Source of the DNA: Diplolepis rosae | Lineage: Eukaryota; Arthropoda; Insecta; Hymenoptera; Diplolepididae | Assembly: GCA_030998225.1 (NCBI GenBank) | Contig: JAPYXD010000713.1 | Location: 1,178,001 to 1,242,000 of the forward strand | Length of the DNA: 64,000 nucleotides | Reading direction: 5' to 3' | Shown here: piece after piece, positions 21,101 through 61,888 of the stretch | Layout of the letters: every line of letters starts with the position of its first letter | Position numbering within the stretch: the stretch's first letter is position 1 | Position numbers and translations under genes: made by a program | The notes under the pieces: model-generated | What the model saw: only the letters and a program-made list of their open reading frames with translations | What the model was told of the DNA's origin: nothing | Databases searched by the model: none

Positions 21101-21772
21101 TGTAACGGTGTGGCCGTTTTCGGTACTAAACATGAGGGGCTCTAGAACCCCTATCGTAATAACACGTTTTCTAGATGAGGAAGGAAACTGCATAACCGAT
21201 TGATAGCTCGTAGGAAATAATGGGAATCCACATTACCGATAGTATACGCGCTAGAATTTGAACGTAATGACTCATAGCCTTGACGGAAAGACTCCTCTGT
21301 GTCTCATTAGCAAGCTTACACGTGTAGGAATTTGAGGAATGCGAAAGCACGCAATAACCTTGTGGCAAATATATACTCATAAATCAGATTTCGCCGCTTT
21401 TATCAGAGTCCGAAACGTAACTTTGAGAACCATAAAATATTCTGAGACGTTGGACTTAGAATTATTTCTCACAAATCGTACTTGTGAAATTGTCGGTAAG
21501 TCAGGCGAGCAAGACTTGACAATCTAAGTGTAAACTAGAGTATATAATTAAACTATATTTAATTATGTTTATAATTAAAAACCATTTCAGATAATAAACT
21601 GTGGAGTTATACAGTGAACAAGTGTTTAATTAATTTAATAAAATAAAACCTCTCCCTTTTTCGCGGGTGTTCGTTTCAACGGACCAACGACAGCAAACGG
21701 ATCCAGCAGCCCATCCAATCAACAACCAGCATCATTGGAAGTTGTCTACCGTAGCGACGCTGGGTCGTAACA
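21101..21772 (+). repeat. Gypsy-A left LTR (solo-like, internally deleted)
   Basis: It starts TGTAACGGTGTGGCCG and ends GGTCGTAACA. Relative to the right LTR it lacks about 290 bases after ACTCATAAATC. It is followed directly by the ATTG flank, not by a primer site, so it is not the LTR that belongs to the internal region next to it. Confidence 0.9.
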
Positions 21773-22566
21773 ATTGAAAATGTACTAAATGTTGACGGTG
21801 GCCTTGTGGCGGCGCCACCTATGCAGTTGGCCTACAATCATTGCAATTGCATGCAAAGTGTTGGAAAATTAATACTTTAAAGCATGAAAGTAATTAAAAT
21901 AATGAAGGTTTACTTATTGAAATCCGCAGAGTTGAAATTTAAAAAAATGGTGAAGTGCTTTTTTATTGGTTGTAAATCGAGGTATAAAAAGTAATTTTGA
22001 GCAAGACAAACTCAACAAAATTCAATTTTTCAAAGTGCCAAATGATCAGAATATTTTATTTTTGTTTATGAAGCTTTCCTTTTTAAAAAAAGTATTATTA
22101 TATTATTAATATAAAATATGAATTATGAGCATTATTAATATAATCCAAAACAACATCTTTGTATTTAGATTATAAAAAAATTATATCTTAATGTATTTTC
22201 AAATTAAAAAAATGATATAAAATTATTCGTTGTAAACAAGCCTAATTAATTTTAATGAATTCATTTATAAATTTGGTTTTCAGTTTAATTATTTCAATGA
22301 AATTTAGCGTAAGGGTTAAGGTGGCTTAGTCGTTTTTGAAAAAAATTATCGTAAATTTATCGTAAAGTAGCATTATAACTCATGAATGAGGCAAAATAAA
22401 CATTCAAAATATTTTTATCCTTATTCTACGTTGAAAATAACGTTAGCTGGTAATTGAGATATGCAATAATTTTATTTGTTTACGCTAAAAATTAAAAAAA
22501 TATAATACCTGTCATTGAAGGCAGTACAGTGGTTCATCACTTTCCATGTCTTCACCGTCAGGATTG
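21773..22566 (+). repeat. duplicated right flank with THAP relic
   Basis: It matches 33099-33966 almost base for base: ATTGAAAATGTACTAAATG, the GTGGCGGCGCCACC palindrome, a THAP-like coding relic and part of the CCCTAGCG foldback MITE. It lacks about 75 bases around the MITE's left tip. It ends at a GACT microhomology joined to LTR sequence. Confidence 0.85.
21947..22065 (+). pseudogene. THAP-domain relic, copy 1
   Basis: The ATG at 21947 opens MVKCFFIGCKSRYK, the C2CH zinc-finger start typical of THAP domains. A different frame then gives FFKVPNDQ, the block that normally follows. A stop (TAA) and a frameshift separate the two. The copy at 33274 keeps a longer first segment. THAP domains occur in P-element-type transposases and in host genes derived from them. 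Confidence 0.55.
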
Positions 22567-22885
22567 ACTTAGAATTATTTCTCACAAATCGTACTTGTGA
22601 AATTGTCGGTAAGTCAGGCGAGCAAGACTTGACAATCTAAGTGTAAACTAGAGTATATAATTAAACTATATTTAATTATGTTTATAATTAAAAACAATTT
22701 CAGATAATAAACTGTGGAGTTATACAGTGAACAAGTGTTTAATTAATTTTATAAAATAAAACCTCTCCCTTTTTCGCGGGTGTTCGTTTCAACGGACCAA
22801 CGACAGCAAACGGATCCAGCAGCCCATCCAATCAACAACCAGCATCATCGGAAGTTGTCTACCGTAGCGACGCTGTGTCGTAACA
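22566..22885 (+). repeat. Gypsy-A truncated 5' LTR
   Basis: Only the last 320 bases of the LTR are present (GACTTAGAATTATTTCTCAC to TGTCGTAACA). This is the LTR attached to the primer site and internal region. Its promoter part is missing, which would prevent normal transcription of this copy. Confidence 0.9.
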
Positions 22886-22889
22886 AATT

Positions 22890-22907
22890 TGGTGGCAGCG
22901 GTGGGAT
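22890..22907 (+). other. Gypsy-A primer-binding site (tRNA-Leu type)
   Basis: TGGTGGCAGCGGTGGGAT lies four bases after the LTR end. Its complement ends CCCACCGCTGCCACCA, the 3' end of a eukaryotic tRNA-Leu as I recall it. Confidence 0.7.
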
Positions 22908-23701
22908 CTGCTGTACCGCATTGGGAGGATTGTTTTACCACATCGACAATAATACTTGTATATACTGTGTTGCATAGGAAGGAAGTTTCCTTACCGAGGA
23001 AGCATAGACAATCATCGTGGGAACTAGGTCAGGAGACCAAACAATTCAGGTTCAAGGTCACTTGTCTGACTAAACGACATTTGACTACTTGATAAAGTAA
23101 GTCCGAAAATACATCTCAACTGTGAAATTAAGGCGGGAGTGTCGCTCGTGATCGAATTTAATTTAAAATTTCCAAGGGGTGAACTGAGTAGTTTCTTGGA
23201 GTTTTAAATGAGTGGATAACCGGAGGGTGAACTGAGTAGCTTTCCGGCCCACCAGGTTCAATCTCGAGCAGACGAGTAGCCTGAAGGAGGAAGAAAAGCC
23301 ACGACCTTCCTCCAGGGTTTTTGCCGTGGTTTTTACACCCGGAGGCGAAGGGTGCAGATAAGCACCGAGGTCGTAAGGTTGTTTGATCGGACCACGGAAA
23401 TAACCCCCTCAACAATCAAGGCTATAATAGAAATATCAGGATAAGCAGCCAGCTCGTGAAGAGTCACGGCAACGAGGGACCTCAGAGGACAGCAGAAGGA
23501 CATCCAGGACCAATCTTCAAGAATTCCAGGACAAAGAAGACTCAAGGTCAGGATACGCAGCTGAAGAAGTGTGGTGAAAAACTGTGAAAAAATTTGTAAT
23601 TGTTTAAGTGTACGCCAATTGGATTATTGTGCAACAAAAGAGTAAGTCCTAGTAAATAAGATAATTTTGTTAATTAAATATAATTTATTTTAAAAGACAA
23701 A
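22908..23701 (+). other. Gypsy-A untranslated leader
   Basis: A leader of about 0.8 kb sits between the primer site and the gag ATG. It is richer in G and C than the flanks and has a repeated GGTGAACTGAGTAG phrase (23175 and 23227). No conserved frame is seen. Confidence 0.6.
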
Positions 23702-25000
23702 ATGCCGAAAGCACGACGGCAAACAAGGGCTGCTAGGCTTAGAAATAAAAGCCAACCTTTAGCGAGTGAAAATTTACAAAATATAGGTAACGAAGGCGTT
23801 GTGAGAGTGACGAGAGGAATGAACCGTATCAGTTTAGGGACTCCGAGTACTAGTAGTGTTAACACCGAGGTTAGAAACATAGCTCCCAATATAGTCACTA
23901 ATAACAATGATATTGATACTGTTCAAAATAATTGGAGTGAGCTACGCAGACATGAGACGCCCGTGCAAATGCTACAAAATCAAGTAAGTGAGCTATCTTT
24001 AGGGGAAACGCGAAATCCTGAAAAGATTTCAAAGGTCGTACGCGATCTAATTCCGGAATTTAATGGTAGGAATATGTCTGTGAGAATGTTCGTTCGTCAT
24101 TGCAGGGCAGCTGTTTCAATGGTATTACCCCAAGAAATACCGTATTTAACGATGCTTATAGTTACTAAAATAACCGGTGAAGCACGAAAACTGATTCAAG
24201 ATAGTCCGGATATTAATTTAAATGAAACTTTGAAAATATTAGAACAAGTGTATTCTCAGCAGGAAGATCTGAGCCAACTAATGCAGCAGTTGGCTACGGT
24301 AAAGGGAAGTAATTTAGAAACGGTACCAGAGTATGGAGCACGCGTAAACCAGATTTTGAATAAACTAATTAATCGTGTGTTAGAAAATACACCTGGTGAA
24401 AGAGGTTTCGTTCGGTGCGAAGCTTTCAAGGAAACTGCAATCGGTAATTTTTTGCGTGGCCTAGAACGTGAAATTTTTGTACAAATTTCAGAAAAGGGAT
24501 TGAATACCCTTGAACAAGCCATCGCGCTAGCTACAGAGGCGGAATTGCGTTTGAAAAGTTGGGAATGGGTGCACAACAAAAATCAACCCCCTAAGTTCGA
24601 ATCTGAGAGAAATTATGAGGGAAAGAGTGAAAATAAATTCGTGTCTCGTAGACGTGTGGCTCACCTCCAAACAGATTTTATAAAAAATGATAAAGTAGAG
24701 CGTCCTAAAGAAAGAATACAGTGTTTCAATTGTAAAGAGTTCGGATATATTAGGCGGGAATGTCAGAACTCTAAAAAACGTAAGTGTGCGGGAGACAGGG
24801 AGGAGCGGGGCTGTCATTATTGTTATAAGGACAATCATAAATTCGAAAATTGTCGTATGAAACGGAAACACGATCAGGAACGTGCAAATTCGAAAAGGCT
24901 TAAGATTACGTCTTTAAACTACAAAAAGGGCCGTTTGAACGAGAGCACGACGGCCGACAAACCAAGTCTCTCCCAGAGTGTAGAATTATCCTCAAGTTAG
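23702..25000 (+). CDS. Gypsy-A Gag
   Basis: Intact 432-residue frame beginning MPKARRQTRAARLR, a basic N-terminus. The central part (about residues 105-300) has the helical, Trp-poor look of Ty3/Gypsy Gag (LIPEFNGRNMSVRMFVRHCR, then LATEAELRLKSWEW). Near the C-terminus are two zinc-knuckle positions. The first, CFNCKEFGYIRREC, has Tyr in place of the invariant His. The second, CHYCYKDNHKFENC, is complete. A basic tail follows. The pol frame lies in -1 and stays open back into gag for over 60 bases (CAAAAAG at 24922 is a possible but non-canonical slip site). Gag would form particles and package RNA in the cytoplasm. Confidence 0.9.
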   Translation: MPKARRQTRAARLRNKSQPLASENLQNIGNEGVVRVTRGMNRISLGTPSTSSVNTEVRNIAPNIVTNNNDIDTVQNNWSELRRHETPVQMLQNQVSELSLGETRNPEKISKVVRDLIPEFNGRNMSVRMFVRHCRAAVSMVLPQEIPYLTMLIVTKITGEARKLIQDSPDINLNETLKILEQVYSQQEDLSQLMQQLATVKGSNLETVPEYGARVNQILNKLINRVLENTPGERGFVRCEAFKETAIGNFLRGLEREIFVQISEKGLNTLEQAIALATEAELRLKSWEWVHNKNQPPKFESERNYEGKSENKFVSRRRVAHLQTDFIKNDKVERPKERIQCFNCKEFGYIRRECQNSKKRKCAGDREERGCHYCYKDNHKFENCRMKRKHDQERANSKRLKITSLNYKKGRLNESTTADKPSLSQSVELSSS

Positions 25001-28000
25001 ATGAATTAAAAAATTTGGGACCAGCCCCTCTGGTAAAATTGGAAAATGTGATTTTTTCTCAGAGAGAGGCCACCTTTCTTGTTGACACAGGATCAAGTGT
25101 TAACATAATTAAGGAGTCTTCTCTAAAATCATTTATTCTAATAAACAGGAAACGAGTCTTAAAATTAGTGGGGATCGGTTCAAATACTGTCTCCACTTTG
25201 GGTGAAATCAAGGTTCTGATTCACGGCATGGAGTCCACATTCCATGTTGTTTCTGAATCTTTTCCAATTGTTCAAGATGGCATTCTTGGAATAGATTTTC
25301 TAAAAAATCATCAAGCGACTTTGGATTTCGATGATGACTGTCTTCTTTTGGGAAAAGAAAAATATCCTCTTTTCGGGTATACGAATATCCATGTACCTGC
25401 AAGGACCAAAAAACAAATTCAATTAAAATTGAAGAATACTAATCTAAGTGAAGGTTATATAAGAAAAATACTCTGCGGTCCAGGGATTTTTCTTGGCGAA
25501 TATTTGGTTCGCAATCAGAATAATGTGGCGAGGGTTTTTATCATTAATTCCACAGCAAAGGAGGTAGATTTAACAATACCCCCAGTTGAACTCGAAGAAT
25601 GCAAAGTAGTTCCATCCTTAGTCCGTTCCTTCAAGGGTGTTGAAAACCTAGAAAAACAGAAACAATTAGGTTTGAGATCGGAAAGACTCTTAGAAATTTT
25701 AAAATTAACTGAACTGGGCGAAGAAGAAAGAGAAAGTCTTATCCCTATTATTATCAATTTTTCGCATCAATTTTACTTACCTGGTGACAAATTGGTAGGA
25801 ACTAATATCTTAACACATAAAATAATAACTGTTGATAAACAACCTATATTTACCAAACAATATCGTTTTCCCCCTATTCATCGAGATGAAATCAGGAAGC
25901 AGACAGACCAATTAATTAATTCAGGTATCGTGCAACCCTCGACTTCACCCTATAATTCTCCCTTATTAATAATCCCTAAAAAATCAGATTCGTCAGGTAA
26001 TAAAAGGTAGAGAATGGTAATAGATTATAGGGCGTTGAATGAAAAAACAGTAGGTGACGCATATCCGCTCCCAAATATAACGGAAATTTTGGATCAATTA
26101 GGAGGATCTAAATATTTTTCTATAATGGACTGAGCTTCTGGTTTCCATCAGATCCCTATGGATCCAGAATCGAAAGAAAAAACTGCCTTTTCAACTCCTT
26201 ACGGACATTTGGAATTTAACCGAATGCCGTTTGGATTGAAAAACGCACCTGCTACTTTTCAGAGAGTAATGGACCAAGTTCTTACTGGTCTTCAAGGTAT
26301 TGAACTCTTCGTTTACATGGATGACATAGTCATCTATGCGACTTCTTTGGAGGAACATTCTCGAAAATTAAAATCGTTGTTAGGACGTTTGAAAACTGCT
26401 GGGTTAGCACTTCAACCAGAGAAATGTTATTTCCTGAAACGAGAAATAGCTTATTTAGGGCATGTTATTACACAGGAAGGAGTTAAACCTGATCCAAAGA
26501 AAATAGAGGCTGTTGAAAAATTTTCTATTCCGAAAAATAAGAGGAATATTAAACAATTTTTAGGTCTCATTGGTTATTATAGGAAATTTATTCCCGATTT
26601 TGCAAAGCTAGCTAAACCTCTGACAGTCATTTTAAAGGATAAGGTACCCTTTAAATGGACTGAGATTGAAAGACAGGCCTTTCAAATTCTGCAGAATAAA
26701 ATTATTTCAAGACCATTATTGCAGTATCCGGATTTTGCAAAACCATTCATAGTTACAACAGATGCTTCAGATTATGCTCTAGGTGGAGTTTTAATTCAGG
26801 GTCAAATTTGTCAAGATTTACCAATTGCTTTCGCTTCACGCACTCTTCAAGGTGCGGAATTAAATTATTCAACAATTGAAAAGGAATTGTTGGCTATAGT
26901 GTTTTGTGTGAAACACTTTAGACCTTATTTATATGGTCGCAAATTTACTTTGGTGACAGACCATCGTCCTCTGGTCTGGCTTCATGGATTGAAGGATCCT
27001 GCTTCAAGGTTGGCTCGGTGGCGGATTAAGTTAAGCGAGTACGAATATGATATCGCCTATAAGCCTGGAAGGGTCAATTCAAATGCAGATGCATTATCAC
27101 GGAATCCTTGTGATAATGGTGGAATTAATATTGATTCACTTTATGTGGAAGAGAGTCAGAAGTTAGTTCTGGCAGAGCGCGGGGAAACAAGCAAGGCTTG
27201 TAGCGCTGGAAATTCTGAGACTGGTTGTGATCCTGAGGAGATGGTTGAGAGTAGGTTCTTCGGAACTGAAGACGAATGTGGGCCCACGGTAAATATAAAT
27301 GGGAATGAGAGGGTTCCCATGAAAAATGGTATCCTTGATGCCGTCACTCAGGGTAAAAAGGAGTGTTCTCAAATATTGGAGTATTTGATGAATGGTTCTG
27401 AGTGTAGTAGTACAACACTTTCAGCTTGTGACAAAAATCACAGGGAGTCAGGAGTTTTTACTCCCAGGGAAGATGGCCATCGAGTCTCTCCTGGCGAGGG
27501 GTCTGATGTTCCGATTAGACCCTTGTCGTTGACTCCAGGGAGGTCACAGGCATTCGGTGTTGGTGTGGTTTCTGCGCAGAGCTCAGGCAGAAATGGTACG
27601 AAAGACTCTTCATGTGAGAGAGCAGTAAAAGTGAGCGGCGGATCTCCTGTTGGATGTATATCAGTATCGTTAGTAACAGAAACATGTATTGCATATAGTA
27701 AAGATAAAGTTTTTATGGGCAAAGGACATCTGGTACATTTCGTAGATGCGCACTGCGAAATGAACTCAGAAGTCAATAAAAACCTGATAGAAAAAAACTT
27801 GTTGAATATAGAGGATTTGAGAAAGGAAAACTCAAAGCCCGGTGAAGTACTTACGTTCATTCGTAATGGTCGATATGTCTTCAGTCTTGTTGTAAAAAAT
27901 AAACAAGATGACAAAATCAATTTAAATATCGTTTCAGAAGTCGTTCAAGCACTAAAAAACACTATGTTGACTTTGGACGTGAAAAGTGTTAAGGTTTCCA

Positions 28001-29179
28001 GTGTTGGAAATGATCTCGAAAATCTTTCTTGGTCTACAGTCGAACAAATATTTAAAGAGAATTTTTCAAATTCAGGGCTCTCCATAATCGTTTGCTCTGG
28101 TGAGATAATAATTCCTCCTGCAAATCAAAGAGAAGAAATTATTAAAGAATTTCATGAATCCGTGGTAGGTGGTCATAAAGGTGCATCAAAAACTTATTGG
28201 AAAGTAAGGTCAAACTATTTTTGGGAAAATATGAAATCAGATGTACAAAGAATTGTTAAAAGTTGTAAAAATTGTCAGAGAAATAAGCTCGTTAGACAAG
28301 GAACTCGTCAGCCAATGCTTATTACTGACACCCCTAAACAACCATTTGAAAAAATTCAAATTGATATGGTGGGACCGTTACCAGTCACACCAAAAGGAAA
28401 TGCTCACATTCCAACAATTCAATGTGTTTTTTTCGAAATATTCTGATGCCTATCCACTTCAGAATACAGATTCTGTAACAATAGCACAAGTTTTAGCAGA
28501 GCAATTCATCGCTCGTTACGGCTGTGCACAGGTTATTCATACAGATCAAGGTTCTAATTTTATGAGTCAAGTATTTAAAACCTTTTGCCGAATTTTTAAA
28601 ATAAAGAAAATCCAATCTACCGCTTATCATCCTCAAAGTTTAGGTTCTCTCGAACGCAGTCATCAGACTTTGATAGAATATCTTCGCCAGTTCCAAAATA
28701 ATCAAAATTGGGATGAATGGCTTCGATTCGCTGTTTTCTCGTATAACACCAGTGTTCATGAGACTACAGGTTTTGCTCCTTATACCTTGGTATTCGCAAA
28801 AGAAGCTAATATTCCTAGTAGTTTTGCGACGAATCTACCAGACAACACTTATTGTAGTTATTTGAAGGATCTTTTCCTGAAATTAGATAATGTTCATTCA
28901 ATGGCTCATGAGAGAATTTTAAAAGCAAAAGAGAAATCAAAAAAATTTTATGATAGAAAAACGAACCCAACATTATTTCGTGAGGGTAATGAAGTGTATT
29001 TAAGGGTAAATCCCAGAAAAGATAAATTCAGTCCTTACTATTCGGGACCGTATATCCTGGAGAGGCTGCTTGGAGAACGGAACGCATTAATCCGAATTGG
29101 TCCAAATAAAACGAAAATTGTGCATGTGGATCGTTTAAAACTATCCGCTCGTCCTTGTGAGGATGAACGGAACGATTGA
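24922..29179 (+). pseudogene. Gypsy-A Pol (protease, RT, RNase H, macro-like domain, integrase), disrupted
   Basis: The domains read in order. Protease has DTGSSVNIIK near 25087. RT has VYMDD near 26315 and RMPFGLKNAPATFQR. RNase H has TTDASDYALGG near 26758. A long linker follows, then a macro-like domain (about 27655-28110), the integrase HHCC zinc region (about 28160-28280) and the integrase core with HTDQGSNF near 28540 and a C-terminal domain to 29179. Breaks are TAG at 26008-26010, TGA at 26131-26133 inside the RT core, and a one-base frameshift in the T-run near 28430. The lesions are few, so the element decayed recently. Confidence 0.9.
27655..28110 (+). other. macro-like domain inside Gypsy-A Pol
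   Basis: About 150 residues between RNase H and integrase resemble the OARD1/TARG1 type of macro domain (ADP-ribose binding or removal). FVDAHCEMNSEV stands where that family has an HCIS-type opening. PGEVLTFIRNGRYVFSLVVK matches the central strand block, and SVGNDLENLSWSTVEQIF matches the GCGLDRLxW block. The Gly-rich loop that contacts ADP-ribose is replaced, and the usual catalytic-loop Asp is Glu here. I infer a diverged macro fold whose enzymatic activity is doubtful. Confidence 0.7.
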
Positions 29180-30770
29180 AACAACACACGTATGTAGAAG
29201 TAAACATACATCAGTAAATTGGGACAAGGGTTAAACAGAACTCCTTCAAAATACTGAACATAGACTAAAGATTAACTAGTCAATCAAAAGTAATGTGATT
29301 GACTACAGAAGAATATTTGACTGATTTGCCAAATGCTCTTCTGAATAAGAAAATAAGTTAAGAATATATCTCTATACAAAAGGTAATAAAAAAAAATAAT
29401 AATATTCAAATGGAAGAAATATGAATTAGATTTAACCATAACATTAAGTACTAATAAAAGAAAAATTTAATTACTTACGAAATATTAGATGCAAGACATT
29501 GCTATATTTACTTTCGAACATTATAAAGATTTGGTTATGTAGATTCAGCCAATCATCAATATATTGATTGACTGCAGAATAATAGTCGACCAATCTTGTC
29601 GAATGTTTTTCTGTAAGGTTAGTTCCAAAATTTCTTCTTAAACTGACATCCTGGATTGAAAATCAGGAAAACCTGAAACAAAAGGAAAGAGAAATTTTAC
29701 ACAAAGCAATCGTTCTTACTACAAGAATATATAATAATAAATTTAAAAAAAAGGGGAGAACTTATCTGATATGCAAGATAGACGAGACCATTCTAGGCAG
29801 GTTTTCTCCGGAAGGCAGGTTTCTCCTGAGAACAAGTTGAATAGTTTAAGCCTGCAGCTTAAATTGACGTATCTGTATGAATATAAAATACAATTATAAA
29901 GAATCCGTTAACGATTCCAACCTACGGGTTATAACACTAAATGTAACAGATTAATTGAGACAAAATGCATCGCTTAAATTCAAACTAATATAAAGAAAAA
30001 CAATTTTATTTGATTTTAAATTATTTGACAAATATTATGATATTAAACGGTGTTCTTTTTCCTCCTGGGTGGACACCCTGTACCATGGAACACTAATAAT
30101 CTTTATTATATATGTATAGCATTTCAAAATAAATTAAATTTAATTGTAAAAGCTCAGAACTATATGCCATGATTTTGGAGGGGAAAGCATCGGTTCCTGA
30201 GCATTATAAAAGGTTATCAAGTATATATATATAAAAAAAAAATTTTATTTTATGTATGAATAGATTGATTAGTTTGGCTTAATTTCCCTGTTGCATTTAT
30301 AAACAAAGAAAAAAGAGGTCTATGAGCAAATTAGGCATTGGTAGATCAGAGCAAGAAAAAGTTAATCAAATGTCTAAGACGATGAAAACATAACCCTGTA
30401 TGGAAAAAGAATCGAGCTGTAAAATTTAAATCTCCTACCTTTCGCGCGCTCTAAATCTAACCTATTTAGAAATTACGAATAGGAACCTTAGAATTAGAAA
30501 CTCGGAACAAGAACTAAGTATGAATGTAAACAAAACATATCCACGTGCTTTTCCCTTTCAAATTCAAAAAAGTGAATCAAAACAACAATAATTAAATATA
30601 AATATAACTATATATTTATAAAAATTCGAAACCTAGAATAAAATGAAACAAGCATATCTTAAATATTATCGAAAAGAAAAGGGCAGGGAAGGTTCATTTT
30701 AATTGCAAGAATAGACGATTCGGAATAAATTCTCTGTGAAAAATTCGTAGTTTCAAAATAAAAAAAAAAA
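29180..30770 (+). other. Gypsy-A 3' non-coding stretch before the extra frame
   Basis: This 1.6-kb AT-rich stretch lies between the end of integrase and the extra ORF. No env-like frame, furin site or other domain is visible. It may hold splice sites for a subgenomic RNA, but I cannot pick them reliably. Confidence 0.5.
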
Positions 30771-31472
30771 ATGATCGAAGCAATTATCTTAACCCTTCTT
30801 TTGTTAATTTTATGGAAAATATATATATTACTTAAGGACAATTTAAATCATGAAGAAATTAGGAGTATCGCGCACTTACGAGTAAATGAGGAGGATACCT
30901 TGCATTTCCTCCAGAAACCGTTCACCACGGTGAGGCATCTGTATGCAAAAATATATACAAAAACGGAGAACAACGAGTGGAGTTGGAGATGCGAGAGGTG
31001 TATAAACCCGGAAGTCGCGTTGAGACTCGGATGGCAATGTGAAGAACTACATTTAGTGGCCTTATCAATTGTGACAACGCAAAAACAGTGCCCGGGATGT
31101 GACAATTGTGTTTTCGAAAACACACCTGCCGGATTCTGCTGGATGTGTCTAGTAATAATAAAAAATTCAAGGTGGCATGAGAGAGGATGGCAAACCTATC
31201 GGGCCATAAAAATAAATACTCATATGCCACCAGACCTACAAATACGAAACCAATTAGAATGGGAAAGTGTGAATCATCTTACCACTCCACCTTACAGACT
31301 ATTCTTCTTTGTAAACATCATTCAAACTCCAGACGGACGTGTTCATATTATACCAGACGAAGAGGAAAACAGTACAAATTCCAGTGATGAAAGTTCCGAC
31401 GAAGCCGATTCCGATGACCAAGCAGATGATTTCGAGGAAACCAGTGAAGATGACGGGTACTTTGAAGATTAG
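30771..31472 (+). CDS. Gypsy-A extra ORF: membrane-anchored, Cys-rich, acidic-tailed protein
   Basis: Intact 233-residue frame in the position where env would lie. Residues 1-23 form a hydrophobic anchor (MIEAIILTLLLLILWKIYIL). The middle has CXXC-type pairs (WRCERC, CPGCDNC, CWMC) plus further Cys residues that could make a zinc-binding module. The last 40 residues are mostly Asp, Glu and Ser. I do not recognise the family, and it does not look like a fusion glycoprotein: no furin-type site and no second transmembrane segment are visible. It is uninterrupted while pol carries three breaks, which may mean selection, recent loss of pol, or chance. The ATG follows an A-run at 30760-30770. Confidence 0.7.
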   Translation: MIEAIILTLLLLILWKIYILLKDNLNHEEIRSIAHLRVNEEDTLHFLQKPFTTVRHLYAKIYTKTENNEWSWRCERCINPEVALRLGWQCEELHLVALSIVTTQKQCPGCDNCVFENTPAGFCWMCLVIIKNSRWHERGWQTYRAIKINTHMPPDLQIRNQLEWESVNHLTTPPYRLFFFVNIIQTPDGRVHIIPDEEENSTNSSDESSDEADSDDQADDFEETSEDDGYFED

Positions 31473-32126
31473 ATGCTAAGGAAGACAAAACATAATGAAA
31501 CAAACAAACCAAGACACTGAGTGAAAAAAAGTGATACAAATAATTATGAAAAAAAAGGGATTTAATACGGATGAGAGACTTTAGAATGTTATTAAAAGAG
31601 ATAGAAAATAATTGTGATAAGTTAACAGTAATTATTAGTATTAGTTGAAAAAAAAAAGGGGGAATGTTTGAGACTTAAAATACGAAAAGTAAGTAAGGTC
31701 AATTTTATAGGAATCCTTACTGCGGTATTTTAGAATTTAAAAGACTTAAATTAACATGATCTCAAATTAAATGTTCAAAACTAATAAATGATAACTATTA
31801 TTGTTAGAATAGGTAATTTTTCAATTTATAAAACTATAAAAAAAAAAAAAATTTCTTCTAATATTGTTCTTAATAAAAGGCAATACTTACCCAAGAAATG
31901 AAATTTTCGAATATTCCTATTACACCTCGTCTATTAAGTAAACAAACACTTGAACGAATAGCACTCATAGAAGAAATTTAATCCCTCTCTGTTATGGCCA
32001 AACTTAAACAGACCGATTTCTTTCACAGCTAATAAATCAGATTACTTTAACAAGCCGACCATTAACGCACCAAAACACATTAAAAAGTCGTAAAAAGCTG
32101 TTTCACCACGAAACACCTTTTTAAAT
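31473..32126 (+). other. Gypsy-A 3' non-coding tail
   Basis: AT-rich stretch from the extra ORF to the polypurine tract. It contains AAAAAAAAGGGGGAATG at about 31650, a second purine-rich run. No gene is seen. Confidence 0.5.
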
Positions 32127-32137
32127 AAGGGGGGAGG
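32127..32137 (+). other. Gypsy-A polypurine tract
   Basis: AAGGGGGGAGG lies immediately 5' of the right LTR and is the expected primer for plus-strand synthesis. Confidence 0.85.
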
Positions 32138-33098
32138 TGTAACGGTGTGGCCGTTTTCGGTACTAAACATGAGGGGCTCTAGAACCCCTATCGTAATAAC
32201 ACGTTTTCTAGATGAGGAAGGAAACTGCATAACCGATTGGTAGCTCGTAGGAAATAATGGGAATCCACATTACCGATAGTATACGCGCTAGGATTTGAAC
32301 GTAATGACTCATAGCCTTGACGGAAAGACTCCTCTGTGTCTCATTAGCAAGCTTACACGTGTAGGAATTTGAGGAATGCGAAAGCACGCAATAACCTTGT
32401 GGCAAATATATACTCATAAATCTGTTTTAATTACCGAAGCGTGCCTTAAGTCTAAAAGGAACCGGATGCTATGTTTATAAACATTATTAAGAATTTCGAC
32501 CTCTCAACTTTGACTGTTTATAATGTCACCTTTTATCTATACAATAATTTGAATTATTGGCAATAGGCGGTCCTGCCTGGCCTGGCATTCTATTTGTCAA
32601 AGTACCATAAAATTCGCTGACGTAAGCAATTTGATTGGCAAAGGACTCAGAGAAAGGGTTAAACCCCACTCAAAACCGACCTTACAAATATACCACGGAG
32701 CGTCGAAAACTCAGATTTCGCCGCTTTTATCAGAGTCCGAAACGTAACTTCGAGAACCATAAAATATTCTGAGACGTTGGATTAGAATTATTTCTCACAA
32801 ATCGTACTTGTGGAATTGTCGGTAAGTCAGGCGAGCAAGGCTTGACAATCTAAGTGTAAACTAGAGTATATAATTAAACTATATTTAATTATGTTTATAA
32901 TTAAAAACAATTTCAGATAATAAACTGTGGAGTTATACAGTGAACAAGTGTTTAATTAATTTTATAAAATAAAACCTCTCCCTTTTTCGCGGGTGTTCGT
33001 TTCAACGGACCAACGACAGCAAACGGATCCAGCAGCCCATCCAATCAACAACCAGCATCATCGGAAGTTGTCTACCGTAGCGACGCTGGGTCGTAACA
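32138..33098 (+). repeat. Gypsy-A right LTR (full length)
   Basis: 961 bases from TGTAACGGTGTGGCCG to GGTCGTAACA, the longest copy present, followed by the ATTG duplication. It contains about 290 bases (roughly 32420-32709) that are absent from the left LTR. Confidence 0.92.
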
Positions 33099-33701
33099 AT
33101 TGAAAATGTACTAAATGTTGACGGTGGCCTTGTGGCGGCGCCACCTATGCAGCTGGCCTACAATCATTGCAATTGCATGCAAAGTGTTGGAAAATTAATA
33201 CTTTAAAGCATGAAAATAATTAAAATAATGAAGGTTTACTTATTGAAATCCGCAGAGTTGAAATTTAAAAAAAATGGTGAAGTGCGTTTTTATTGGTTGT
33301 AAATCGAGGTATAAAAAGTCATTTGGAGCAGGACAAACTCAACAAAATTCAATTTTTCAAAGTGCCAAATGATCAGAATATTTTCTTTTTGCTTATGAAG
33401 CTTTTCTTTTTAAAAAAAGTATTATTATATTATTAATATAAAATATGAATTATGAGCATTATTAATATAATCCAAAACAACATCTTTGTACTTAGTTTAT
33501 AAAAAAATTATATCTTAATATATTTTCAAATTAAAAAAATGATATAAAATTATTCGTTGTAAACAAACCTAATTAATTTTAATGAATTCATTTATAAATT
33601 TGGTTTTGAGTTTAATTATTTCAATGAAATTTAGCTTAAGGGTTAAGGTGGCTTAGGCGTTTTTGAAAAAAATTACAGATTGCTCTGAAACTTAGAGATT
33701 A
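33099..33701 (+). repeat. Gypsy-A right flank with THAP relic
   Basis: This is the target region into which Gypsy-A inserted. It carries the subterminal palindrome GGTGGCCTTGTGGCGGCGCC, a THAP relic at 33274 and AT-rich DNA, and ends at the CCCTAGCG MITE. A reverse-complement relative of the palindromic segment sits at 56543-56583. Confidence 0.7.
33274..33390 (+). pseudogene. THAP-domain relic, copy 2
   Basis: The ATG at 33274 opens MVKCVFIGCKSRYKKSFGAG, a good match to the start of a THAP zinc finger (C-x4-C spacing and SRYKK). FFKVPNDQ follows in another frame, indicating a small deletion or frameshift. The downstream transposase part is not present here, so this is a 5' fragment of a P-element-type transposon or a host THAP gene. 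Confidence 0.6.
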
Positions 33702-34286
33702 CCCTAGCGAACTGGCTGAACGATAGCTTTACGCTGTAGCGTAACATTATCGTAAATTTATCGTAAAGTAGCATTATAACTCATGAATGAGGCAAAATAA
33801 ACATTCAAAATGTTTTTATCCTTATTCTACGTTGAAAATAACGTTAGCTGGTAATTGAGATATGCAATAATTTTATTTGTTTACGCTAAAAATTAAAAAA
33901 ATATAATACCTGTCATTGAAGGCAGTACAGTGGTTCATCACTTTCCATGTCTTCACCGTCAGGATTGACTATTTGTTAGAGTGAGATGAAAGTATAGTTG
34001 CGTCTCACTCCAACCAGTGGTCAACTTTAACGGAGAAGTTCCACAAAAGGTGAACCATTGCACTGCCTTCAATGACAGGTATTATATTTTTTTAATTTTT
34101 AGCGTAAATAAATAAAATTATTGCATATTTCAATTACCAATTAACGTTATTTTTAACGTAGAATAAGGATAAAAACATTTTGAATATTTATTTTGCCTCA
34201 TTCATGAGTTATAATGCTACTTTACGATAACTTTACGATAATGTTACGCTACAGCGTAAAGCTATCGTTCAGCTAGTTCGCTAGGG
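33702..34286. repeat. 585-bp foldback MITE with CCCTAGCGAACTGGCTGAAC ends, copy 1
   Basis: Arms of about 260 bp: CCCTAGCGAACTGGCTGAAC at the left, GTTCAGCTAGTTCGCTAGGG at the right. Internal partners include CATTATAACTCATGAATGAG with CTCATTCATGAGTTATAATG. The centre lies near 33980-34000. A second copy is at 55050-56202, and a left-arm fragment lies in 22355-22566. Confidence 0.9.
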
Positions 34287-50599: not shown

Positions 50600-50880
50600 C
50601 CCGCTCTCCAGGAGGCACCATCACTAGGGAAAAGCCCGTCTATAGGGCTCCCTTGGCAGCCATCCTGACGACAACAGCCCTACTGCTGGCAGAGTCCTTG
50701 CGGCTACTACCGTTGGTGGGCTGCAGGACGCGTCTGCTCCGTGCTTGGACTCATGCGTTCACCTCGGCGAGACCCTGCCCGCCCACAGAACGCTCTCTTG
50801 GTTGTTAGGTGTGTTGTGTTTAGTGTCGCTGTAATGTGTTGTGTCATGTTGCTGTCTGTGTGCCCCCTCCTCCTTTCTCA

Positions 50881-52584
50881 TCCGGGCTTGGGACCGGCAA
50901 TGGCAATTTAAATTTGCGCCGAAAATTTTCATGGAACTTCTGTGTAGCCGCAGTTCCAAACCCTATCATTGGGGCTGATCTGTTGGCTCATTACCATCTT
51001 GTGCCTTATCTTCATGAGTCACGATTGGTTGACACGACCACTGGTCTTGGTGTCGTTGGATTCATAAAATCTGTAGCTGTTTTCAGCGTCAGCTCAGTAG
51101 ATCATTCAGCAGCTTATTCAGAGATTTTATCGGAATTTCCGGAGATTACCGGCATTTCTCAGATCTCAAAAATAAAGGTTTGTGATGTTCAACATCATAT
51201 CATCACCAAGGGACCTCCAGTGTTCGAAAGAGCCCGACGTTTCTCCCCTGAAAAACTACTGGTTGCTAAACAGATGTTTCGGCAGATGCTGGACGACGGT
51301 GTTTGTCGTCCATCCAGCAGCCCTTGGGCTTCTCCTATTCATATGACTCGCAAGAAAAACGGAGAATGGCGGATATGCGGTGATTTCCGTCGCCTTAATG
51401 CTGGTACCGAACCTGACAAATACCCTGTACCTCATTTACACGATTTTACAGCTAACCTTCGCGGGAAGGTGATATTCTCCAAGCTCGATCTCCATATGGC
51501 TTACAATCAGATCCCTATAGCCCCTGAGGATGGACCAAAAACAGCGGTTATTACTCCCTTCGGACTCTTTGAATATAACATGATGACTTTTGGGTTGTGC
51601 AATGCAGGTCAATCTTTCCAGCGTTATATTCATCGTGCTTTAGGGGATTTCAATTTTGTTTTCTGTTATATCGATGACATTCTCATTGCCTCTTCGAATT
51701 CCGAAGAACATGAGAATGATCTTAGGGCCGTTTTTAAACGTCTGAAAAAATATGCCCTACGTATAAACGTCAACAAATGCCAGTTTGGCCAATCGAAGCT
51801 TGAATTTCTTGGTCATTTAATCGACCGCGATGGTCTTAAACCAACTCCTGAAAACGTTCGTGCAATTACTCAGTTTCCGAAGCCTCAAACTATTGTGGAG
51901 CTTTGTAGATTTCTCGGTTTGGTTAATTTTTATCGTTGCAGTCTTCCTCATGCGGCCGAGTCACAGGTTCCTTTGCACCAGTATCTGCATGAATCTCGTA
52001 GAAATGATAAACGTAGAGTCGTTTGGACCAAAGACGCTGAAGAGGCGTTTGATCAGATTAAAAAGAATCTGGCTAATGCAACTCTTCTTCCTCATCCCGC
52101 CGTGGGTCTCGAAATGCGTCTAGTCACCGATGCCTCGGACTTTGGCATGGGAGCCTCCTTAGAACAATTCATCGATGATTTGTGGAAGCCGCTTGCCTTC
52201 TTTTCAAAAAAATTTTCATCATCAAAGCTAAATTACAGTGCATATGATCGCGAACTAACGGCTGTTTATGAAGCTATTCGGTACTTCAAACATTTTCTTG
52301 AAGGCCAAATCTTCAAAGTCGTTACCGATCACAAACCACTTATTTACGCTTTTATTCGACGTTCGGAGAAGGCTTCTCCTAGACAGCAGCGGCAATTGTC
52401 GTTCATCTCACAATTTACCACAAAAATCGAATTTCAGCCTGGTCCAGACAATGTTGTTGCGGATTCTTTATCAAGGATTGAATCGGTTTCTTCGCCTACT
52501 TTGTTCAGTCTTTATGATATTGCTGAGGCGCAGGAAAATGATGACGAACTTAGGTGCATTATCGCGGATCCTAAATGCTCGTAA
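50881..52584 (+). CDS. Gypsy-B Pol: protease end, RT and RNase H
   Basis: An open frame follows the R1 insertion. Protease C-terminus: SWNFCVAAVPNPIIGADLLA. RT: SPWASPIHMTRKKNGEWRIC, FSKLDLHMAYNQIPI, MMTFGLCNAGQSFQRYI and the catalytic FCYIDDILIASS. RNase H: LVTDASDFGMGASL, ELTAVYEAIRYF and VTDHKPLIYAF. The frame ends with TAA at 52582-52584, at the start of the integrase region. The first bases after 50836 derive from the R1 element, so the start given is where Gypsy-B homology begins. The protein is headless because of the insertion. Confidence 0.9.
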   Translation, partial: SGLGTGNGNLNLRRKFSWNFCVAAVPNPIIGADLLAHYHLVPYLHESRLVDTTTGLGVVGFIKSVAVFSVSSVDHSAAYSEILSEFPEITGISQISKIKVCDVQHHIITKGPPVFERARRFSPEKLLVAKQMFRQMLDDGVCRPSSSPWASPIHMTRKKNGEWRICGDFRRLNAGTEPDKYPVPHLHDFTANLRGKVIFSKLDLHMAYNQIPIAPEDGPKTAVITPFGLFEYNMMTFGLCNAGQSFQRYIHRALGDFNFVFCYIDDILIASSNSEEHENDLRAVFKRLKKYALRINVNKCQFGQSKLEFLGHLIDRDGLKPTPENVRAITQFPKPQTIVELCRFLGLVNFYRCSLPHAAESQVPLHQYLHESRRNDKRRVVWTKDAEEAFDQIKKNLANATLLPHPAVGLEMRLVTDASDFGMGASLEQFIDDLWKPLAFFSKKFSSSKLNYSAYDRELTAVYEAIRYFKHFLEGQIFKVVTDHKPLIYAFIRRSEKASPRQQRQLSFISQFTTKIEFQPGPDNVVADSLSRIESVSSPTLFSLYDIAEAQENDDELRCIIADPKCS

Positions 52585-52587
52585 AGC

Positions 52588-53728
52588 TTGAGAAAGCTCC
52601 TGTGGGATTCTGGGCGTTCTGCCATTTATTGTGATCTCTCGGGAGAGACTCTTCGCCCGTATATTCCGTCAGCTTTGCGTCAACGCATTTTTCATCCTTT
52701 TCATGACCACGCTCATCCTAGTGCGAGGGTTTCTGATCGCGTTATTCGCAAACACTATGTTAGGCCAGCGATGCATCGCGATATTTCTGCATGGTGTAAA
52801 GCTTGTCTTGATTGCCAGCAGTCTAAAATCTCGCGTCATAACCATCTTGCTCCTGCTCAATTCGTGGTGCCTGATGATAGATTCAAGCATATACAGGTAT
52901 TGTCTTACGATGATAGACCGTTTCTCTCGCTGGCCGGAGGCGGTTCCGCTTAAAAATATTGAGGCGATCACAGTTTTTCGTGCATTTTCTGCCACCTGAA
53001 TCTCGCGTTATGGTGCTCCTGAGAAGTTAACTACAGATCAGGGCAGTCAGTTCGAGTCCCAGCTTTTTGCGGCGTTGATGCAACTTATTGCTTGCCATAG
53101 GGTTCATACAACTCCCTATCATCCAGCTGCCAATGGAATGATTGAGCGTTGGCATCGATCTCTTAAGGCTGCAATCATGTGCCATAATGATCGCGCTTGG
53201 TCTCGCTCTTTGTCAACAGTCATGTTAGGTTTACGATCGAACGTTTTGGACACTGGTTCATCGCCTGCCGAGTATCTCTACGGCATAACTCTTAGGATTC
53301 CCGAGGAGTTCATCCTGCCTGAGGACTTCTCACCTGATCCGCAGATGTTTCTTGAAGAATTTCGAGAGCATATGTGAAAGGTCAAACCTATTCCGGTAGC
53401 TCAAAAATATAAAAGAGAAACATTTGTATTTAAAAATTTAGAATCTAGTACGCATGTTTTCTTACTTTTTACTCCTTCTCAGAAGTCTCTCGAGCGCCCG
53501 TACACTGGACCTCATAAGATTCTAAATCGTATCTCCGACAGAGTGTTTGAGATAGATGTAAATGGTTCTTCTCGTCGAGTTTCAGTGGCGAACATGAAAC
53601 CGGCTTACTTTGTCCGCCAGGACATCGACAATATCTCACAACCAGGTTCGAAATCACCTGTTGATGGGAAGGTCATCCCACCGTTAAAAACTTATAGCCG
53701 CAAGAAGAAGGTTACGTTCAATGTATAG
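52588..53728 (+). pseudogene. Gypsy-B integrase, multiply disrupted
   Basis: The HHCC zinc region (HPFHDHAHPSARVSDRVI and CKACLDCQQSK) is followed by a small deletion that removes the first catalytic Asp region near 52895. The core then continues in another frame (LTMIDRFSRWPEAVPL). A TGA lies after FRAFSAT near 52999. TDQGSQFESQLFAALMQLIA and TPYHPAANGMIERWHRSL (catalytic Asp and Glu) follow, and a TGA near 53377 precedes the C-terminal region ending at 53728. The reading frame is broken at least four times. Confidence 0.88.
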
Positions 53729-61097: not shown

Positions 61098-61888
61098 GGG
61101 ATGAAGTGCCGGAGATAAGTCAAGGTAACCTCACAGAAAGCAGAGATTATTCAACAGAATTTAAGAGAAGGAAAATTCAATCGGAGAACGGCAACCCAAG
61201 TTCTTCCAATCATGTCCCTGTCATGGTGTTAAATGCCTCATGTGTTCGATATAAAAAAGATCCTTTCATAAGTAAAGACTTTTATCTTGTTTATTTTATC
61301 TCGGAGGACTGCAAATTCACAACCCAGGTTAGCAAGGACTTAGAAAACGAAGGGCTAGTGAATTTTGAGGCTCTTCTGACTACTCAGCCTAAAAAGGGGC
61401 ACGTTGTAGTCTTTGAGCAAGATGAAAGATACATTTTCCACTTAGTCGCAAGGTCCACCTATGACGAAAGACCCTCATTAGAAATTTTCAAAGAGTGCCT
61501 CATCGGACTCAAAAAGGCCATGGAAGATCTGAATGTCGAGTCTTGTAACTTTTCCAGAAAAAGAAATGGACTCGATCGATTGCCATGATCTGGAGTCGAA
61601 GAAGCATTAAGAAACACTTTCGGCGCAAGTAATATTACTATTAACATTTGTACTAACGAGTTATTAGTACCCGATTTTGGAGATAGGCAAAAGATTATAG
61701 AAGAATGTCACTCGTCTGCAGCAGGGGGACATTTGGGAATAGCAAAAACATACGCGAGACTAAGACAGAGATTTTACTGGGAGGGCTCGAAATTTGACGT
61801 ACAAGAGTTCATGAAAACATGCCCAGACTGTCAAAGGGCCAAGCTTGTCCGACAAAAGAAAAAAGAACCCATGAAAATTCCTGCCCAA
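61094..61888 (+). pseudogene. Gypsy-C macro-like domain and integrase N-terminus
   Basis: The macro-like part runs about 61210-61660. LVYFISEDCKFTTQVSKDL aligns with the HCISED opening of the OARD1/TARG1 type. HVVVFEQDERYIFHLVARST is the central block, and RNGLDRLP followed by TGA (61586-61588) in place of Trp matches GLDRLxW, keeping the Asp that Gypsy-A has lost. It continues in the same frame to NITINICTNELLVP, then the integrase zinc region (HSSAAGGHLGIAKTYARLRQ; CPDCQRAK) and breaks off near 61888. Confidence 0.75.

Follow-up and report, generated by a model that had tools for sequence, protein, structure and literature searches.

Background

RNA viruses use macrodomains to undo host ADP-ribosylation, and alphaviruses and coronaviruses counter or exploit this modification with macrodomains of their own. 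Here we describe a macrodomain related to human TARG1 (OARD1) within the pol gene of a Gypsy (Ty3-type) retrotransposon of Diplolepis rosae. It is encoded within 27655-28110 on the + strand of a 64,000-nucleotide stretch of contig JAPYXD010000713.1, and this whole stretch is referred to as the window.

Human TARG1 (C6orf130; PDB 4j5q, 4j5r, and 4j5s) is a free protein, unlike the Gypsy macrodomain, which is part of the Pol polyprotein. TARG1-class enzymes are described in PMC7050489 as removing ADP-ribose from acidic residues and nucleic-acid ends, and in PMC9411070, DNA is named as a substrate of SCO6735 and DarG. These two bacterial ALC1-like hydrolases occur in a toxin-antitoxin or stand-alone context. 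Catalysis by TARG1 employs Lys84 with residue 125, which is called Asp125 in PMC9411070 and Glu125 in PMC7050489; the TARG1 PDB chain aligned in this study has Asp at 125.

The nearest precedent found is a group of epsilon-like endogenous retroviruses of fish in which a macro-domain open reading frame (ORF) is reported (Basta et al. 2009, cited in PMC4977317). Both are retroelements with a macrodomain, but the fish viruses are described as carrying it in additional ORFs, whereas the Gypsy macrodomain lies in frame in pol beside the integrase. No report of a macrodomain inside a Gypsy element was found in the literature searched, which is a weak negative because most subscription papers were outside its scope.

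Identity of the domain

The reading frame is open throughout 27655-28110 (+) and encodes 152 residues (P0001), and stops were abundant in the other two + frames and in the one - frame that was read. An earlier sequence-only reading of the window had placed about 150 residues with two ordered blocks in frame inside a retrotransposon pol. These blocks, PGEVLTFIRNGRYVFSLVVK and SVGNDLENLSWSTVEQIF, were located at P0001 residues 62-81 and 116-133, respectively. A phmmer search of PDB sequences with P0001 matched human TARG1 at an E value of 8.9e-11, and a profile built from 28 copies of the domain matched it at 7e-23. The DarG macrodomain (2.9e-4) and SCO6735 were more distant in sequence, and the sequence relation was significant to TARG1 rather than to other macro classes. 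The predicted fold of P0001 was that of a macrodomain with TARG1 as its nearest solved structure, the two agreeing over 142 residues at 1.9 A with 22-26% identity. By fold and sequence, P0001 belongs to the ALC1-like/TARG1 class, and we regard its identity as a TARG1-type macrodomain as virtually certain.

In contrast to these matches, P0001 gave no Macro match in Pfam-A, the curated cut-off of PF01661 not being reached. Among the 28 aligned copies, two matched Pfam Macro at E <=0.1, with a best value of 0.033 that is still below the cut-off. This failure is what speaks for a fortuitous resemblance, or for a macrodomain misread from an alpha/beta fold of unrelated origin, an explanation that is refuted for practical purposes. 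A chance resemblance or a misread frame was ruled out by the open frame, the stops in the other frames read, and the TARG1 matches. The earlier reading had assigned the domain to the OARD1/TARG1 branch of macrodomains and named a profile search and a predicted fold as checks; the assignment held in both, TARG1 being matched by phmmer and by the copy profile and the predicted alpha/beta fold being closest to TARG1. Because Pfam misses the domain, Pfam as the only judge would have misled on the profile search, and the macrodomain may be overlooked in other genomes.

Position in pol and spread across the genome

The pol region of the window's element contains the following features (RT, reverse transcriptase).

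24904-26010, + strand: protease and start of RT, delimited by stops (Pfam RVP)
26134-28446, + strand: open frame (P0002, 770 residues) with the rest of RT, RNase H, spacer, macrodomain, and H2C2 (Pfam)
26731-27042, + strand: RNase H (PF17917), P0002 residues 200-303 (Pfam, E 5.6e-39)
27112-27684, + strand: spacer between RNase H and macrodomain, fast-evolving and of variable length in related families
27685-28101, + strand: TARG1/ALC1-like macrodomain, P0001 residues 11-149 (sequence, profile, and predicted fold)
27760-27777, + strand: loop 1, residues 36-41, a polar motif in place of the TARG1 Gly-rich loop (alignment of copies)
27895-27897, + strand: Lys (P0001 Lys81) at the place of TARG1 Lys84 (alignment)
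28006-28020, + strand: phosphate-binding loop GNDLE, in which Glu occupies the TARG1 Asp125 position (alignment)
28114-28287, + strand: integrase H2C2 zinc domain (PF17921; Pfam, E 5.3e-22)
28235-29179, + strand: core and C-terminal part of the integrase, which this copy encodes in a different frame (Pfam rve)

With Pfam RNase H before the macrodomain and H2C2 directly after it, the location between RNase H and integrase was as first proposed. To describe its spread, the genome containing the window (757.7 Mb in 428 contigs) was searched. P0001 had at least 151 matches (150 scored of 2339 first-look candidates). A stop was present in 29 of about 150 listed matches, as counted by eye; other copies had single long frames around the macrodomain of, for example, 1279, 1417, and 1505 residues. 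Forty matches were retrieved with their flanks. A single open frame contained the motif at the RNase H end, the macrodomain, and the H2C2 pattern in 27 of them, and in the remaining 13, one or both of the two patterns were absent from that frame. The zinc motif began, with its first His, 15 residues after the macro profile match in all 32 copies with the H2C2 pattern, whereas the macrodomain followed the RNase H motif at a distance of 173 to 323 residues (32 copies with the RNase H motif); some of the copies measured are close relatives. The fixed distance on one side and the variable one on the other indicate that the macrodomain belongs with the integrase and is only loosely tied to RNase H.

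The order RNase H, spacer, macrodomain, H2C2, and integrase was retained in the lineages L074 and L077/L078, which had 26% and 21-22% identity to P0001, respectively; L074 and L078 each matched TARG1 on their own. Further long-frame families in the genome were revealed with two protein queries, P0009 and P0012. Many divergent Gypsy families in this genome, down to 21% identity, thus share the macrodomain. Its capture, which the earlier reading had placed in the one element, is not confined to that element.

A divergent macro-bearing Gypsy lineage had a second RNase H, of the cellular RNase H1 type, upstream of the macrodomain. In L087 (G000:C182:6271900-6273169), it matched human RNASEH1 at E 5.1e-24 and Pfam RNase_H at 8.2e-18, and a similar extra RNase H1 was recognized by eye in L084 (G000:C55:761900-762999). 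The C55 copy also had a Ty3-type RNase H further upstream, in L086.

Selection and inheritance

The ratio of nonsynonymous to synonymous substitution rates (dN/dS) was calculated by segment with the Nei-Gojobori method for distinct copies as they stand. Twenty-five loci had all four segments (some were retrieved twice), 17 of which counted as distinct copies. Of their 136 pairs, 7 passed the filter 0.05<=dS<=1.5, and four of these are quoted. In these four pairs, dN/dS was 0.21, 0.30, 0.28, and 0.10 for the macrodomain, 0.18, 0.25, 0.23, and 0.05 for the integrase, 0.11, 0.25, 0.17, and saturated for RT-RNase H, and 0.76, 0.75, 0.89, and 0.58 for the adjoining upstream spacer, respectively. 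In the measurable pairs, the macrodomain is under purifying selection.

Trees were compared for 15 of the 17 distinct copies after two near-duplicates had been removed by hand. The macrodomain tree agreed with the integrase tree at a Mantel r of 0.93 (9 of 12 splits) and with the RT-RNase H tree at 0.83 (7 of 12), and the integrase and RT-RNase H trees agreed at 0.84 (7 of 12). Together with the dN/dS values, this agreement indicates that the macrodomain was inherited with pol and is constrained on its own account.

These data bear on the possibility that the macrodomain is a passenger, picked up as a fragment on one occasion and retained without use. Domains can hitch-hike, and the macrodomain is also found in many broken copies; against this stand its dN/dS of 0.10-0.30 compared with 0.58-0.89 for the spacer in the same pairs, and its persistence among copies down to 21% identity. 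We consider a passenger very improbable and a conserved function of the macrodomain in the element highly probable.

Active-site residues

Seventy-nine domain matches were collected, four of fewer than 125 residues were dropped, and the remaining 75 (some loci retrieved twice) were reduced to 27 copies below 85% identity. The Lys84 column contained Lys in 23 copies and Arg in 4. The phosphate loop had the pattern G-x-x-L-(D/E), as in TARG1; its Gly121 column was Gly in all 27 copies, and a Trp followed the loop in 25. The Asp125 column contained Asp, Glu, Asn, His, and Gly in 18, 3, 3, 2, and 1 copies, respectively. When 148 columns were ranked by entropy, the Lys84 column was 15th, and Gly121 was among seven invariant columns. 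The window's family has Lys and Glu at the Lys84 and Asp125 places. The alterations of the ligand residues noticed earlier, namely the missing Gly-rich loop and the changed catalytic Asp, were found in this family; the loss of Asp is not a general trait, since Asp is kept in 18 of the 27 nonredundant copies. The middle place of loop 1, corresponding to TARG1 Gly41-Ala42-Gly43, was Ser, Thr, or Asn in every copy, suggesting a changed loop and not random decay, and the loss of the Gly-rich loop argues for a changed substrate.

Some retroviral integrases carry N-terminal extension domains. The main rival explanation is a similar, structural N-terminal extension of the integrase, in which the macro fold is kept for assembly or DNA contact and ligand binding is lost. 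The lost Gly-rich loop (27 of 27), the Asp125 that is not retained in 9 of 27 copies, several invariant columns that resemble core or turn positions, and the constant 15-residue distance to the zinc motif all fit such a scaffold. A pure scaffold, however, need not retain the basic residue at the Lys84 place or the phosphate-loop Gly, each of which is kept throughout. Moreover, SCO6735 is active although it has neither dyad residue, as stated in PMC9411070, so that lost residues are no proof of lost activity. We judge this explanation rather unlikely.

The same columns bear on a domain that only reads, binding ADP-ribose on chromatin or DNA breaks and steering integration without hydrolysis. 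ALC1-like macrodomains comprise both readers and erasers, according to PMC7050489, and the fixed position beside the integrase and the replaced Asp of some families are consistent with reading. At least 17 of the 27 copies, however, combine Asp with a basic residue as its partner (the former in 18 copies, Lys or Arg in all 27), and the loop change may weaken binding. A pure reader seems improbable.

Proposed role of the macrodomain

The explanation we favor, and consider reasonably probable, is that a derived TARG1-type reader or eraser of ADP-ribose forms the N-terminal module of the integrase in a large group of Gypsy elements. That the macrodomain binds or hydrolyzes ADP-ribose is predicted from its residues, and we lean slightly towards it. 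The fixed distance to the zinc motif and the fast-evolving link to RNase H suggest that the macrodomain most likely remains joined to the integrase after processing. It would then act on host ADP-ribosylation encountered during cDNA synthesis or integration, either clearing the element's RNA, cDNA ends, or proteins of ADP-ribose or binding PARP-marked chromatin at the breaks made by integration; any of these particular targets is proposed with considerable doubt. The catalytic residue would be the TARG1 lysine, paired in most families with Asp or Glu.

Several points weigh against this explanation. The window's family has Glu, not Asp, at the catalytic Asp125 place, the Asp125 column comes no higher than 53rd among the 148, and the TARG1 Gly-rich loop (Gly41 and Gly43) is absent from all 27 copies. 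A single trio of related families supplied three of the four informative dN/dS pairs, and three more pairs, near saturation, gave macrodomain values of 0.39-0.45 (macrodomain identity 43-45%, dS 1.3-1.4, integrase and RT-RNase H being saturated or nearly so). Nor was a host donor recognized among the listed matches to human TARG1.

Since the macrodomain is kept under selection in related elements, these elements may recognize or remove a chemical mark of the host. An abundant group of long terminal repeat (LTR) retrotransposons with a selected, in-frame TARG1-type macrodomain tied to the integrase would make ADP-ribosylation testable as a defense against, or a guide for, retrotransposition. 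As a tentative extension, a whole Gypsy branch might erase or exploit host ADP-ribosylation through this integrase-borne domain just when reverse transcription or integration takes place, and the gap between RNase H and integrase might serve generally as a slot in which cellular enzymes of nucleic acids dock, such as the macrodomain and the second RNase H1.

Origin and occurrence elsewhere

The domain had been proposed to be captured from the host. This was not borne out, as no TARG1 gene was recognized in the genome among the matches listed: a search with human TARG1 (150 scored of 793 candidates; best 62 bits, none above 33% identity) yielded no recognizable host exon, although such a search could miss a short or divergent one. 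Of the 150 matches, 28 loci were examined (L054-L063 and L064-L081; 26 places), and all 28 fitted the family profile. A PF01661 search of the genome gave three short matches at two places.

Macrodomain-like, TARG1-like predicted folds were found in BFVD in thrips-associated flavi-, virga-, and negev-like viruses and in Kadipiro virus VP8. The named proteins resembled the query in fold with template modeling (TM) scores of 0.77-0.86; unlike the Gypsy domain, they belong to RNA viruses, and their identity was 18-21%. Given the similar folds in thrips-virus proteins, a virus-to-virus route is as open as a host gene for the origin of the domain. A search of viral_contigs gave 42 pattern matches, none of which was confirmed.

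A protein search with P0002 residues 460-680 retained none of 2507 candidates, very short and very long proteins being excluded by its length limits. The family profile matched 14 proteins of 79-242 residues, six of them with PF17921. Among these, P0012 was 99% identical to a copy in the window's genome. P0009 reached 84% at best there among 150 scored of 6037 candidates and may therefore come from a related species. The protein search with human TARG1 listed 120 of 764 matches, and the listed ones with a species name were all vertebrates.

Other features of the window

The element carrying the macrodomain has a protease, RT, RNase H, and integrase (H2C2 and rve) between LTRs and is thus of the Ty3/Gypsy type. 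Stops and a change of frame break up the window's copy, whose frames end at 26010 and 28446. Its remaining features and the second macrodomain of the window are as follows.

21101-33100 (approximate), + strand: Gypsy-type element with LTR copies, gag, pol, and an extra 3' ORF (self-comparison, boundaries by eye)
22566-22893, + strand: 3' part of the LTR copy adjoining the internal region (99.1% to the 3' LTR over 318 bases; end by eye)
23684-25000, + strand: gag frame with two CCHC knuckles, one of them degenerate (by eye; weak sub-cut-off Pfam PNMA/Ty3_capsid)
32138-33100, + strand: 3' LTR, with a purine run, AAGGGGGGAGG, before it (self-comparison; purine run and end by eye)
61220-61663, + strand: second macrodomain, in a related Gypsy element with matches from 58362 on (TARG1-like GLDRL; end after the stop by eye)

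The second macrodomain copy is cut by a stop codon at 61586-61588, at the end of its phosphate loop. Another kind of Gypsy element in the window (frame 50824-52584 onward) has no room for a macrodomain: the part that matches P0002 in RNase H extends to 52476, and the match in the H2C2 region begins at 52606.

An LTR copy and about 800 bases of following sequence are present at both ends of the macrodomain-bearing element (21101-22569 and 32138-33970). These repeats are 96-99% identical by block, and most blocks lie about 11.3 kb apart, as a tandem duplication or an unequal exchange would leave them.

An ORF of 236 residues (30762-31472, + strand) follows pol and precedes the 3' LTR; it has a hydrophobic N-terminus, a Cys-rich middle, and an acidic tail. 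It had no Pfam match above the cut-off. The genome contained 47 matches to it, several of which were located 3-4 kb downstream of macrodomain copies.
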